Source: a virus
Length of the DNA stretch: 34,515 nt
Direction: 5' to 3' (one strand)
Virus record (IMG/VR): IMGVR_UViG_3300031977_001476
Coordinates: 1-34,515 of that record
Under the pieces are notes generated by a model. It was not told the DNA's origin and ran no database searches. It saw only the letters and a program-made list of their open reading frames with translations. Of the stretch, positions 17,655 to 34,261 are shown in pieces (positions within the stretch are counted from its first letter, which is position 1; every line of letters starts with the position of its first letter). A program made the position numbers and the translations under genes.

Positions 17655-18392
17655 TTAATTTTCTTTACTGTTAATTGATTCTTCCTCAGAATTAAGCCAA
17701 AAAACCAATAAATATCTATCGCCTTCCTCAACTGCTAAACCTCGATGCATGTGAGTATAGCTAGGAAATATTAGACCGCTACCTGTCGGTAAAGGCTCTA
17801 CGATTCCCCTGTTTAAAAATTCTGTTCCGCCGCCTTTGTAGTCGCCTGTATTTAAGGGTACTACAATACTAACATCTGAACTGGCGTCGTGGTGCCAAGC
17901 ACCTTGTTTTTTATTCTTTAAATTGTAATTTGCTATTTGTATATTGCCACCTGTAACGTGGCGATTCCATATTGTTAATAAAATTGGATTGATAAAAGAT
18001 TGAACTACGTGCAACAAAGAGCTGTATAGTTCTGGACATCTTTCACTTAAAACTATTTCTGGTATTTGTCTTAGCTCATCTTCTTCTGGATTTGGACAAA
18101 ATGAAAAATGATCTTGCATATTATTTATTTCATCTAATAATATTTGACAAAATTTTTCTGAAAATAAGGGAACGGTATATACCTCCTTCAAAGGCTCTGA
18201 TATAACGCTTGTTAAAGGATTATCTTCTGGGTTATTTACACCCATACTTTTGTAAAAATCTACGATATTTGGAATAGATTGTTTGGCTCTTTCTAAGGTT
18301 TCTTTGTTCAAAAACCAATCGGATGGATATGCGAGCAATAGGTTTTTAAGCTCGTATTTTTCTTCTTCTAAATATATTTTTTCTGCTAGCAT
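17655..18392 (-). CDS. 2-oxoglutarate/Fe(II)-dependent dioxygenase, prolyl-hydroxylase-like
   Basis: The 245-aa protein carries the double-stranded beta-helix signature: iron ligands His167-x-Asp169 in AWHHDASSD and distal His216 in THMHRG, followed ten residues later by Arg226 in EEGDRYLLVFW, the usual 2-oxoglutarate anchor. A GGGTEFLNRG segment between them matches the prolyl-4-hydroxylase-like group. The first 110 residues are unrecognised and helical. It should hydroxylate a protein side chain or small molecule using O2 and 2-oxoglutarate. It lies between structural genes, so a virion or host-surface protein target is possible. Confidence 0.82.
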   Translation of the reverse strand: MLAEKIYLEEEKYELKNLLLAYPSDWFLNKETLERAKQSIPNIVDFYKSMGVNNPEDNPLTSVISEPLKEVYTVPLFSEKFCQILLDEINNMQDHFSFCPNPEEDELRQIPEIVLSERCPELYSSLLHVVQSFINPILLTIWNRHVTGGNIQIANYNLKNKKQGAWHHDASSDVSIVVPLNTGDYKGGGTEFLNRGIVEPLPTGSGLIFPSYTHMHRGLAVEEGDRYLLVFWLNSEEESINSKEN

Positions 18393-30194: not shown

Positions 30195-30875
30195 TTAATC
30201 TTCCTCTGGAGCGTATAGATTATTAAAAGTTATATTTGGATCTATATAGCTCTCATGCTGTTCTGCAGAATGCGTCCATTGAGAAGGCATAAAGTCTGGA
30301 GCTCCCTCACCAACACGCCATAAAGCAGGATTTGTTGCTCTAACTCTATTATTTGGTAAAGCAACAAAATTGCCAGTATATTCACCAGCATCTGTTAAAT
30401 ATAACACATGAGACTGCTTATGTTGAGCAGGATCATCTGCTATAGAGTTATCTGTATAGTCTACAGTAAATAAATACTTTCCTGTATAAAATTCTCCACC
30501 TATTTTACAAAGCCAAGGAGATGAACTGACTCTATCCATTGTAACTACAGAATGGTGATGGCTAAGACAATCCCAAGGTTGGGCTAAATGATCTTCCATT
30601 GGAGTTGGCCATTCTTGAAGAGGTATATCTGCTACAAGTGCTTGAATTGGCATTCTGGCCCACATAGCGCCACCATGAACATTTTGAGCGTCTTCTTCGT
30701 TATCTATTTCGCATCCTGTAAATACTACTTGAAATGACAAAGATCTGTCTGGAATTGTATTTACAGCTATAGCCAAAGCATGTAAATATTCTCCGTGATA
30801 CTTGCTATGATTTGCTGTAAATTCTTTTCTGACCCAGCATTTAAACTGAGGTATATTTGAAATTAAATATGACAT
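30195..30875 (-). CDS. conserved marine-phage hypothetical structural protein (226 aa)
   Basis: The 226-aa protein starts SYLISNIPQFKCWVRKEFTA and contains HGEYLHALAIAVNTIPDRSL, HGGAMWARMPIQALVADIPL, a LAQPWDCLSHHHSVVTMDRV segment and a Trp-rich C-terminal region (NPALWRVGEGAPDFMPSQW). Its His- and Trp-rich surface is unusual and could coordinate metal (the HHH triplet near residue 106). I recognise it as a recurrent unnamed protein in this location of marine phage genomes but know no function. It precedes the small basic protein cluster in gene order. Confidence 0.7.
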   Translation of the reverse strand: MSYLISNIPQFKCWVRKEFTANHSKYHGEYLHALAIAVNTIPDRSLSFQVVFTGCEIDNEEDAQNVHGGAMWARMPIQALVADIPLQEWPTPMEDHLAQPWDCLSHHHSVVTMDRVSSSPWLCKIGGEFYTGKYLFTVDYTDNSIADDPAQHKQSHVLYLTDAGEYTGNFVALPNNRVRATNPALWRVGEGAPDFMPSQWTHSAEQHESYIDPNITFNNLYAPEED

Positions 30876-30886
30876 TTAGCTGCAAG

Positions 30887-31081
30887 TTAAACTTTGCCGC
30901 CTTTTGCCATATATTTAGTGCTTTTAGAAGCAGCTCCGCCTGCAGCCATGTACTTTGTTTTTTTAGCAGCTCCGCCTGTAGACATATATTTTGTTTTTTT
31001 AGCAGCTCCGCCTGTAGACATATATTTAGTACCTTTACTTACAGGTCCACCACCTGCGTACATTTTAGTTCTTTTAAACAT
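30887..31081 (-). CDS. tiny basic protein made of 12-aa KTKYM-GG repeats (64 aa)
   Basis: After an initial MFKRTKMYAGGGPVSK the 64-aa protein consists of four copies of a 12-residue unit KKTKYMSTGGAA (with KGTKYMSTGGAA, KTKYMAAGGAAS and STKYMAKGG variants), so it is strongly basic, Gly-rich and low in hydrophobics except Tyr/Met. It has a very good ribosome-binding site (TAGGAGA before ATG 31081). Such repeats could bind DNA, phosphate or another protein by stacking of Lys-Tyr pairs. No known family. It ends the five-gene cluster of small basic proteins. Confidence 0.72.
   Translation of the reverse strand: MFKRTKMYAGGGPVSKGTKYMSTGGAAKKTKYMSTGGAAKKTKYMAAGGAASKSTKYMAKGGKV
30957..31028. repeat. 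two tandem 36-bp units encoding the KTKYM repeat
   Basis: Units 30957-30992 and 30993-31028 match at 35 of 36 bases, differing only in the last. More distant copies of the same 12-codon unit flank them, with more differences, so the repeat grew by tandem duplication, with the central pair the most recent. Confidence 0.9.
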
Positions 31082-31090
31082 TCTATTCTC

Positions 31091-31288
31091 CTAGCTTATT
31101 GTAGTTACTTTTCTTTTTTGCTCCATAACAGCACCGCATCCATTTGCTATAAAGCCGCCACCTTGCAATTTTAATTTGTTTTGCTTTGCCATTGATTTTT
31201 CAATAGCTAAACCTCTTTTTTCTTCGTAAGAGTTAATTTTGCCGTCTTTATTAAGATCTGCTTTTTTTGGGTTTTTTAGTTTTGCCAT
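31091..31288 (-). CDS. small basic protein with a single EF-hand calcium loop (65 aa)
   Basis: DLNKDGKINSYE (residues 11-22) is a canonical EF-hand loop: ligands Asp at 1, Asn at 3, Asp at 5, Gly at 6, Ile at 8 and Glu at 12. Helices flank it (KNPKKA and EKRGLAIEKSMAKQNKLK). The C-terminal end GGGFIANGCGAVMEQKRKVT is a motif I know from similar short proteins in marine phages. The protein is very basic, odd for a calcium binder. Calcium is abundant in seawater, so a structural Ca site in the virion is possible. It belongs to the small-protein cluster. Confidence 0.72.
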   Translation of the reverse strand: MAKLKNPKKADLNKDGKINSYEEKRGLAIEKSMAKQNKLKLQGGGFIANGCGAVMEQKRKVTTIS

Positions 31289-31297
31289 TTTTTTATT

Positions 31298-31585
31298 TTA
31301 TCTTAACCTATCTCTCATAACAACACCCTGCCCTCTAATATTTGCAGGCCCTCCTGTTGATTTTCTAACCCTTCCGCTTTTCCAGCTTACTCGTTTTTTG
31401 CTGGTTTTTTTCTTTATTGCTGAAGATGCTCCTTTTTTCTTACAATCAGCCATAGTTGGTCTACAAGCTGGATATCCTTTACGCTTTTCGCCTTTTTGGC
31501 GACCGCAAGGTTTGCCAGTTTTACAATCAACCCAGCCTTTGCCTTTGTTGCGAGAAAACCATTTTTTTAATCCTTCTTCTGCCAT
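31298..31585 (-). CDS. small very basic Cys-containing protein, DUF5872-like segment (95 aa)
   Basis: The 95-aa protein has a KGKGWVDCKTGKPCGRQKGE block followed by KRKGYPACRPTMADCKKKG (four Cys that could bind zinc), then a Lys/Arg/Ser-rich tail (SAIKKKTSKKRVSWKSGRVR) and an RGQGVVMRDRLR end. The first block is one I associate with DUF5872-type proteins of viruses, from memory. It is overwhelmingly basic, so DNA binding or condensation is a natural guess. Its start shares one base with the stop of the upstream gene. Confidence 0.72.
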   Translation of the reverse strand: MAEEGLKKWFSRNKGKGWVDCKTGKPCGRQKGEKRKGYPACRPTMADCKKKGASSAIKKKTSKKRVSWKSGRVRKSTGGPANIRGQGVVMRDRLR

Positions 31586-31815
31586 TATCCCAGCTTAGTT
31601 TGTTTACGTTTACCTTTAAGCAAGTTACTAAAACCTCTAGGAGTTACAAAAGTTGCTACGCCACCACCTGAAAGTTTCTGTCTTGATTTATTGCCCCAGT
31701 TTTTTGCTCCCACTTTTCTGCATTTAACCAAAGCTCCGCTTGCATATGCAGATGGCCAAACTTTATATCTTGATTTTACCTTTCTATAACAAGCGTCTTT
31801 TTTACCTTTTGCCAT
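31585..31815 (-). CDS. small very basic protein with DUF5872 motif (76 aa)
   Basis: The core KKDACYRKVKSRYKVWPSAY followed by ASGALVKCRKVGAKNWGNK matches the short conserved motif found in DUF5872-type viral and phage proteins: two Cys, Trp-Pro-Ser-Ala-Tyr and basic helices. The tail RGFSNLLKGKRKQTKLG is again basic. Together with the neighbour it looks like a longer two-domain protein split into two adjacent genes. Function unknown; the motif is found in proteins suspected of DNA contact. Confidence 0.75.
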   Translation of the reverse strand: MAKGKKDACYRKVKSRYKVWPSAYASGALVKCRKVGAKNWGNKSRQKLSGGGVATFVTPRGFSNLLKGKRKQTKLG

Positions 31816-32118
31816 TTAACACTTCCACCTTCTTCTTGCCTGCCTAATTCTTGAATTAGGATCGTTTCTAGTTTTTGCTGAACTTCTCTTCAATTGTCCT
31901 AGAGATCTTGCGCAATATGAAGCACGTCTTTTTGCTGCTTTAGATCCTTTTTTTACTTTACCTGTTACAGCTGTTTTTAACTTAGATCCTGGATTTGCTT
32001 TTCTATAAGCTCTTACACCTTTAGCTGTCATACCAGCGCCTTTTTTAGTAGGTCTATAATTAGCACCCTTACCTTTTGTTGTTCTTGGTATACTTTTAGA
32101 TTTTCTTCTTGTTGTCAT
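31816..32118 (-). CDS. small very basic protein, DUF6321-like (100 aa)
   Basis: The conserved block GAGMTAKGVRAYRKANPGSK followed by LKTAVTGKVKKGSKAAKRRA and SYCARSLGQLK is the pattern I remember as DUF6321, found in many phages and some giant viruses. The C-terminus PNSRIRQARRRWKC is also typical. It is Lys/Arg-rich with few acidic residues, and is the first of the five-gene cluster of small proteins, just after the 264-aa virion gene. It could coat or compact DNA in the head or act in assembly; no experiment is known to me. Confidence 0.8.
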   Translation of the reverse strand: MTTRRKSKSIPRTTKGKGANYRPTKKGAGMTAKGVRAYRKANPGSKLKTAVTGKVKKGSKAAKRRASYCARSLGQLKRSSAKTRNDPNSRIRQARRRWKC

Positions 32119-32120
32119 AA

Positions 32121-32915
32121 TTACTCAGGATAAGGTCTATTTTGTATATATATAATATCCATAGAAGCAGATACAGCAATATCAGCACCTGCTGAGTCTC
32201 CTACACATCTAAATTCTAAGTCTGTCTTTTCTTCAAACTTTAAAGGAACATCGTACTGTTGATTATGTGAGCTTTCTGCTTTTACAAATTTATCTTTTGC
32301 CTGAAAAACACCACCATTTTCTCTAGCAACAAAATGAACAGTTGCATATTTATTGTTTTGGGTTGTTGCTGCGGTAACATCCGTTTGAGATAAATATGCG
32401 GTATAGCCTCTTGGAACAGTCCAAAGCGCCATAAGGGTTTGATTATCTCCGATTGCTATAGTTGCGTATTTATTTGCCGGCACACCAGAAGTTACAGTTC
32501 CTGTACCTGCGTATATAACGCCAGCATTTTTACCACCAGATCCTGCTGTATCAACAGTCATTCTGTAAATTCTTAAATAAGATAAAGTTGAATTTACAGC
32601 TGTTTGTCCATTTAAAGTAATTGTTTCCGATATTTCATCATAATTAGCATCTAGTCCAAATAATGTTACGGTTCTTGCTCCGGTTCCTGCAGATGTATCA
32701 TTTGTTGAAGAACTAGATATTTTTAAAACAGTAGCTGCTGATAAATAGGAGTACAATCCACCTTCAGCCCAAATAGTTTCTAAAGAATCATCAACATCTG
32801 GATTAAAACCAAACTTAAATATGCTTTTATGATAAGCAATTTGCCCTCTTGCAATTTGTAAATTAAAAGGCTCGCTTGTTCCTACACGTGATATTGAAGA
32901 AACTTCGCGAGCCAT
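32121..32915 (-). CDS. conserved marine-phage beta-rich virion protein (264 aa)
   Basis: The 264-aa protein begins with MAREVSSISRVGTSEPFNLQ and has IARGQIAYHKSIFKFGFNPD, then long beta segments with Thr/Ser/Gly (TVTLFGLDANYDEISETITL) and a C-terminal NRPYPE. I know close look-alikes in the structural block of marine phages, encoded near the capsid gene, so decoration, vertex or head-fibre roles are all possible. No catalytic motif is present. Confidence 0.68.
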   Translation of the reverse strand: MAREVSSISRVGTSEPFNLQIARGQIAYHKSIFKFGFNPDVDDSLETIWAEGGLYSYLSAATVLKISSSSTNDTSAGTGARTVTLFGLDANYDEISETITLNGQTAVNSTLSYLRIYRMTVDTAGSGGKNAGVIYAGTGTVTSGVPANKYATIAIGDNQTLMALWTVPRGYTAYLSQTDVTAATTQNNKYATVHFVARENGGVFQAKDKFVKAESSHNQQYDVPLKFEEKTDLEFRCVGDSAGADIAVSASMDIIYIQNRPYPE

Positions 32916-33841: not shown

Positions 33842-34261
33842 TTATAGTTGTTTATTAAAGTGTTCTTTTGACTCTAATATGGCTTCTCTAGAATTAAATA
33901 AAGCCTGATAGGATTCTTTTATTTTTGGATCTTTGCCGTATTCGTCTAACATATCTTTACCAATCATTTCTAGCAAAGATATTACGGTTGTCATTCTTCC
34001 TTGTATGTCTTGTTTCTTCTCGCTCATTTCATCTCCATAAGATTCTATTTTTTGTCTTATACTGTATCCTCGCATAACATTTTTTAGATTTATTAACTTT
34101 TTATCTAAATCTGTATAGGTTTCCCAATCTCGTATTTCTTCGACACTTCTTCCGCATCCTTTGCATATTTCATCAAAAGGAGCCATAGAAGTGCTGCACT
34201 TTCCTATACAAGGAGAGTTTGACATGCTATTGCTTGAATGCAAAACAGTATATATTTTCAT
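33842..34261 (-). CDS. DUF1289-domain protein with an added helical C-terminal half (139 aa)
   Basis: The N-terminal 50 residues carry the DUF1289 pattern SPCIGKCSTSMAPFDEICKG followed by CGRSVEEIRDW, with Cys18, Cys22, Cys33 and Cys36 arranged as a metal- or Fe-S-binding knuckle. DUF1289 is usually a short bacterial (mainly proteobacterial) protein of this length by itself. Here an extra 90-residue charged helical tail (RQKIESYGDEMSEKKQDIQG, then SLLEMIGKDMLDEYGKD) follows. The first Met and the Met at residue 13 are both possible starts, and neither has a ribosome-binding site. It lies outside the capsid transcript, after a terminator. Confidence 0.75.
   Translation of the reverse strand: MKIYTVLHSSNSMSNSPCIGKCSTSMAPFDEICKGCGRSVEEIRDWETYTDLDKKLINLKNVMRGYSIRQKIESYGDEMSEKKQDIQGRMTTVISLLEMIGKDMLDEYGKDPKIKESYQALFNSREAILESKEHFNKQL

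Follow-up and report, generated by a model that had tools for sequence, protein, structure and literature searches.

Organization of the locus

The window, that is, the whole stretch of DNA analysed here, is a virus record of 34,515 bases that has been classed as a possible fragment, and its right end cuts off a major-capsid-like frame recognised by eye; relatives of the window extend to 48-50 kb. Scans with phrog and Pfam models named neither a terminase nor a portal in it. An assignment to HTVC010P-type phages was dropped, the DUF6321 gene being the sole gene found in common with those phages. A preliminary description of the sequence had pointed to five consecutive tiny leftward genes (64-100 aa), and these are indeed present, with lengths of 64, 65, 95, 76 and 100 aa from left to right. 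They are tightly packed, such that genes 1 and 2 abut at 31816/31815 and genes 2 and 3 overlap by one base (31585/31585). Read in the direction of transcription, the first gene encodes module C (DUF6321), the second module B and the third module A; genes for an EF-hand protein and a protein of 12-residue repeats follow. Profiles were constructed for these three modules, for another module, D, for E, which substitutes for C, and for the EF-hand and a C-terminal tag (T), and were run against 9,093 ORFs of 173 sequences. The features of the locus are as follows.

31816..32118, minus strand: gene 1, 100 aa, DUF6321, module C at residues 28-100 (31819-32037), from Pfam, phrog_10346 and phrog_727; net charge +33
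31585..31815, minus strand: gene 2, 76 aa, module B at residues 5-43 (31687-31803) with a Cys9/Cys32 pair, phrog_727 1.7e-23; net charge +20
31588..31668, minus strand: tag variant of gene 2, ending RGFSNLLKGKRKQTKLG, from comparison of tags across loci
31298..31585, minus strand: gene 3, 95 aa, module A at residues 6-45 (31451-31570), phrog_727 0.0024 (weak), own profile 4e-17; net charge +24
31301..31354, minus strand: tag variant of gene 3, GGPANIRGQGVVMRDRLR, from comparison of tags across loci
31091..31288, minus strand: gene 4, 65 aa, single EF-hand/dockerin-like loop (31223-31258), own profile 2e-20; net charge +9
31094..31162, minus strand: tag of gene 4, GGGFIANGCGAVMEQKRKVTTIS, T profile 8e-11 and comparison of tags across loci
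30887..31081, minus strand: gene 5, 64 aa, KTKYM/GG 12-residue tandem repeats; net charge +15
30195..30875, minus strand: 226-aa flanking gene, phrog_3704 ("PurM/ferredoxin" in cyanophages), a neighbour whose membership in the set is unproven

Most of the preliminary assignments stood. The DUF6321 match of gene 1 is clear (PF19846, 1.1e-11; 45.6 bits against a Pfam cut-off of 28.5), and the 12-aa KTKYM repeat of gene 5 is present with a 36-bp period over 30897-31027, in 2.8-3.6 copies, within a protein that holds no acidic residues and has a relative in 64 of the 173 sequences. The proteins had been called nearly all strongly Lys/Arg-rich, in agreement with a Lys+Arg content of 23-34% and net charges of +9 to +33. 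Two further genes had been read as DUF5872-like pieces, which is partly borne out: the 76-aa protein falls below the Pfam cut-off for DUF5872 (PF19197, E 0.011; 16.7 bits, cut-off 27.5) but matches phrog_727 strongly, whereas the 95-aa protein matches phrog_727 weakly and no Pfam family, DUF5872 included. Similarly, the proposed single EF-hand has a loop, DLNKDGKINSYE (31223-31258), that fits the canonical 12-residue pattern DxNxDGxIxxxE, but its Pfam scores (EF-hand_5 0.013, Dockerin 0.0035) are both below cut-off (15.4 bits against 25.9 for EF-hand).

Compared with their closest informative relatives, the five genes have pN/pS values of 0.12-0.36 (0.12-0.22 for gene 1 and 0.13-0.29 for gene 2); they are thus under purifying selection and not chance ORFs. 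The strongest constraint among the genes compared was on the 226-aa acidic neighbour (pN/pS 0.05-0.08), which has no Pfam match and for which the names "PurM" and "ferredoxin" look doubtful. This neighbour bounds the set on one side and a 264-aa protein (32121-32915; phrog_8198, unknown) on the other. The preliminary placement of the five genes between two structural proteins needs correcting, in that neither flank is proven structural; a head-tail adaptor (SU10_adaptor, 4.5e-15) lies one gene beyond the 226-aa neighbour. Elsewhere in the window, a DUF1289 domain protein (5e-12) is encoded at 33842-34261 (minus strand), two genes from the capsid-like frame, and a 2OG-Fe(II) oxygenase-like protein (phrog_61, 1.8e-29) at 17655-18392 (minus strand), within the leftward late operon.

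The modules occur as separate genes or within one fused protein

The profile of phrog_727 spans A at positions 112-179, B at 265-309 and C at 361-430 of its 450 positions, an order that is kept in the window but spread over three genes rather than one. In T4-like cyanophages, all three modules are contained within one protein located between gp16 and gp17. For example, S-TIM4 ORF_115 is an A-B-C fusion at this position, and fused A-B-C proteins also include S-SCSM1 gp29, S-SM1 SSM1_115 and T4-GC 119, while the Bellamy protein reads D-A-B-C. In the Bellamy protein (L022:4957-6813, plus strand) a DUF192 domain (1.3e-26) also sits between A and B. The observation that DUF5872 motifs of longer proteins appear here on separate genes therefore extends further than first described, to A, B and C all in one cyanophage protein. 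Used as a query, the S-TIM4 protein retrieved 490 phage records, 240 of which cover most of its length, and the gene 2 protein matched 366. A cellular origin of B was rejected, since among 84,980 species it was found in just 28 contigs, all of them from metagenome-assembled genomes.

Separate neighbouring module genes, in turn, recur in phages infecting SAR11, Roseobacter and Prochlorococcus; the sets of these unrelated phages lie near capsid, terminase or portal genes. In Prochlorococcus phage P-SCSP2, genes for B, EF-hand, A and C are flanked by the scaffold and capsid genes, with no terminase nearby, and in Roseobacter phage CRP-7 genes for C, B and A adjoin the terminase. Small module genes were likewise found in Pelagibacter phage HTVC203P, Roseobacter phage CRP-901 and phage C72C1. 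The B and A open frames of CRP-901 (L166:3835-4231, plus strand) are unannotated in the deposited record, a sign that the annotation of public phage genomes misses small module genes. Flavobacterium phage immuto carries a B-A fusion, with a homologue of the window's 226-aa neighbour about 1 kb off. A two-module protein at L071:5968-6414 (plus strand), starting MKFSEWLELREE, also has B before A and not A before B, with Leu-x-Glu directly ahead of module B.

The five genes had been proposed to form a unit, and counts of co-occurrence agree. Of 11 IMG/VR contigs that were retrieved through B only and extend far enough to either side of it, all had A close by and 10 had C or E. Contigs were also fetched by the 226-aa neighbour gene; of the 63 that have 2.2 kb or more of sequence upstream of it, 54 had both A and B, and 53 had A, B and either C or E. 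Clustering at 90% identity over 2 kb splits the 89 sequences with the neighbour gene into 64 groups, so these contigs are not one genome copied. The five genes are therefore a real, co-inherited set. Its cassettes vary nonetheless: C is replaced by E in some, D and EF are gained or lost, and EF is sometimes fused to A. The EF-hand module is optional, being present in just 17 of the 63 cassettes, and the calcium dependence raised in the preliminary description is accordingly not supported.

Paired cysteines and predicted structures

All modules are net basic, and their cysteines are conserved in twos. Gene 3 encodes four cysteines, of which the two in module A are (near-)invariant in the alignment of the family. 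In module C, Cys69 and Cys100 (numbering of the window protein) are (near-)invariant among DUF6321-type members and E-like relatives; a profile comparison probability of 53% is suggestive of homology between C and E. For module B both cysteines were present in 61 sequences, both absent in 19 and a single one present in none. That the two are lost jointly suggests a paired role, by way of either a disulfide or a metal bound by both. An AlphaFold model of B has two predicted helices (8-16 and 23-35, pLDDT about 80), one carrying C9 and the other C32; the model of C has helices at 32-41, 60-78, 81-85 and 90-97. The two predicted models, with mean pLDDT values of 64 and 68, gave no significant structural match in the PDB, and no DNA-binding fold was recognised in them at this moderate confidence. 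Foldseek matches to H2A.Z nucleosomes were discarded as chance (E above 5). Neither proteins B and C nor the profiles of the three modules matched anything when searched against PDB sequences.

A C-terminal tag shared by proteins with different modules

Proteins that have no module in common (B, A, A-EF and EF proteins) often, though not always, share a C-terminal tag of the pattern GG-(n)-[IV]xRG[CQF]Gx[VM]Mxx[KR][RL][KR], or in short form GG...RGxGxVMxxKRK. The T profile match stops 2-5 residues before the C-terminus. In the window, genes 2, 3 and 4 carry three different variants of the tag. A broader form of the pattern was present in 70/70 proteins matching the T profile, in 33/57 other B ORFs and in 5/57 other A ORFs; its 4 occurrences in the 8,717 remaining ORFs are chance-like. 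No T profile match was obtained for the fused cyanophage forms, the C proteins or the D proteins. When the KKTKY end of the tag was compared with the KTKYM repeat of gene 5, TK[YF] was found in 11 of 70 tags. The movement of this tag between unrelated cargo suggests one common partner, presumably a head or core protein.

Prohead protease-type motifs at module borders of the fused proteins

The prohead protease of T4 cleaves after L/I-x-Glu (PMC9026906), a motif that we broadened from L/I to [ILVMF]-x-Glu. Among non-redundant fused proteins, 28 of 30 have the broadened motif no more than 12 residues before A and 26 of 32 no more than 12 before B, and in 19 of 26 it falls within 3 residues of where C starts, as compared to 24% (within 12) and 7% (within 3) of random linker positions. 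Composition-preserving shuffles of the upstream segments gave far fewer matches; the motif is, however, short and common, and the upstream segments are partly kin by descent. A stricter form, [ILVMF]xE[GASD], occurred zero times in 8,107 module residues, an absence that is weak alone because the modules are Glu-poor. Its density in linkers was 0.0104, 2.5 times the value of 0.0041 for the other large ORFs at these loci. The simplest reading of these sequence patterns is that the fused protein would be a precursor split by gp21 into modules, which would match the separate products of the window. S-SZBM1_194 (L177:15253-17376, minus strand), a 707-aa protein whose gene adjoins that of the terminase small subunit, has an internal FITYREFIAEG whose end is an I-x-Glu site like that of the T4 prohead protease, and is possibly another multi-part precursor.

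Relatives of the modules in virions

Two cyanophage relatives have been recorded in virions. S-CREM2 ORF137, whose C-terminus is module C and in which neither A nor B was found, was detected by mass spectrometry in CsCl-purified virions with 4 unique peptides and 4.1% coverage (PMC10665884, Table 3); this detection is thin, and the identity of ORF137 was matched by coordinates. S-SCSM1 gp29, which has the full A-B-C arrangement, is labelled "virion protein" in MK867354.2. The S-SCSM1 virion was the subject of a mass spectrometry study (PMC9602691), and the labels of the record appear to track that study because terminases and many hypotheticals go without one. The S-SM1 A-B-C gene (SSM1_115) remains "hypothetical" despite an analysed S-SM1 virion, and the S-SZBM1 virion proteins gave no support for modules in the particle. 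S-SZBM1_190, a detected virion protein of the same genome interval, was dropped as extra support, as its sequence contains none of the modules. Very Lys/Arg-rich proteins are easily missed upon trypsin digestion. Both virion records concern cyanophage relatives.

A proposed role in the head interior

The co-inherited set, the cyanophage fusion and the two relatives in virions together argue that these are probably small proteins housed in the head along with the DNA. More specifically, we give about even chances to a reading in which these are modular, small, basic head-interior proteins that lie against packaged DNA and are brought in by a tag or a precursor. Under this proposal the basic proteins would enter the head interior and neutralise or organise the packaged DNA. 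Encoding them as separate genes would yield modules that are made singly and can be swapped, as when C is exchanged for E, EF-hand is gained or fused to A, or D is inserted. The tag shared by EF, A and B would dock varied cargo onto a common head or core partner, a part played in T4 by the N-terminal capsid-targeting sequence common to its internal proteins; in T4-like cyanophages the modules are instead strung in one protein, a presumed precursor, from which cutting at the hydrophobic-x-Glu sites ahead of A, B and C would free them as the head matures. The preliminary description had also suggested an internal head set. Virion association is upheld through the S-CREM2 and S-SCSM1 relatives; the interior location, like DNA contact, cleavage and tag function, is one that we infer, and the step from the virion to a position inside, on DNA, would draw on charge, gene neighbourhood and analogy.

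The same virion records would also fit internal head proteins that act after injection, like T4 IPI and Alt, by blocking host nucleases or altering host chromatin or transcription. We regard this as unlikely, as we do its corollary that the module swaps mirror an arms race with hosts. It would account for cassettes in which E takes the place of C or in which D and EF come and go, and the internal proteins of T4 include an anti-restriction protein (PMC9026906), but module B is 73-95% identical among varied phage contigs and over 75% identical among cyanobacterial phages, a conservation exceeding what arms-race proteins usually show, and models of anti-defence and defence systems gave no match. 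It is improbable, too, that the proteins are late helpers outside the virion, which would bind nucleic acid in packaging or late expression and be made together with structural proteins but not retained in the particle. Such helpers could explain why the genes adjoin the terminase in T4-like phages and CRP-7, and the lack of a structural label in S-SM1, but not the virion records of S-CREM2 and S-SCSM1 or the position of the P-SCSP2 set between scaffold and capsid genes, with no terminase close by. Small outer or inner capsid cement proteins, disulfide-stapled and stabilising the shell rather than the DNA, would suit the near-invariant Cys pairs of A and C, their joint gain or loss in B and the adjacent capsid-region genes, but are highly improbable, since every protein carries a high positive charge that is unusual in outer decoration proteins. 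Nor do passages of the P-SCSP1u capsid paper that describe the particle name such a protein.

A head-interior role would bring the set close to known systems without placing it among them. T4 IPI, IPII and IPIII are, like the window set, small basic proteins, and the T4 internal proteins, several per virion, combine a short common terminal sequence with differing bodies (PMC9026906), much as the window set shares a tag. L/I-x-Glu processing in T4 also has a comparable motif at the module borders of the cyanophage fused forms. In T4, however, the common sequence is an N-terminal capsid-targeting propeptide ending in L/I-x-Glu, whereas the five window proteins share no N-terminus and have instead a C-terminal tag that is not a propeptide. 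Their modules are moreover Cys-paired, no sequence similarity to T4 internal proteins was found, and the arrangement is one of separate genes in the window and one precursor in cyanophages. We therefore suggest that the set works like the T4 internal proteins and, given that the N-terminal propeptide is absent from the window proteins, claim no membership in that group. The fused phrog_727 protein of cyanophages has A, B and C as in the window, but in one chain with linkers and with no C-terminal tag, EF-hand or KTKYM repeat. Inner-body and ejection proteins of phiKZ and SPN3US are head proteins cut after x-x-Glu by a gp21-like protease, some of them DNA-associated (PMC9026906), but these are large proteins of large phages, unlike the window set. 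The charge and Cys pairs of the window proteins would also be compatible with histone-like or protamine-like packing proteins.

Resemblances reach beyond phages. DUF5872, of algal giant viruses and polinton-like viruses (PLVs), aligns weakly to B and then A, below the Pfam cut-off, and DUF5754/Tlr6F weakly matches the E-type substitutes of C, also below cut-off. DUF5872 is present in an algal giant virus (PMC12085832), and Tlr6F is common to PLVs, NCLDVs and phages and widespread in viruses (PMC12220804). Searches for virion or functional data on DUF5872 and DUF5754 yielded none. A bolder proposal, which we advance tentatively, is that marine phages share one swappable kit of small, basic, Cys-paired head modules with two modes of delivery, as tagged separate genes or as a protease-cut polyprotein, and that this kit reaches the algal giant viruses through DUF5872 and DUF5754/Tlr6F.

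The domains themselves are known in Pfam and PHROGs, where they are listed without function. The open literature describes no function for DUF5872, DUF6321 or DUF5754, and in open-access text we came across no earlier account of the tag, of the border motif or of the set treated as one unit. The present analysis joins several families of unknown function as a single functional set found in unrelated marine phages. It offers a testable role for DUF5872, DUF6321, phrog_727 and DUF5754/Tlr6F, and it specifies exactly both a protein tag and the predicted points of cleavage. If the proposed role is true, the tag would represent a second capsid-targeting scheme besides that of T4, and internal head proteins would evolve through splitting and fusing. 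If the modules do form one shared kit, it would amount to a virion-interior toolkit common to phages and eukaryotic viruses.
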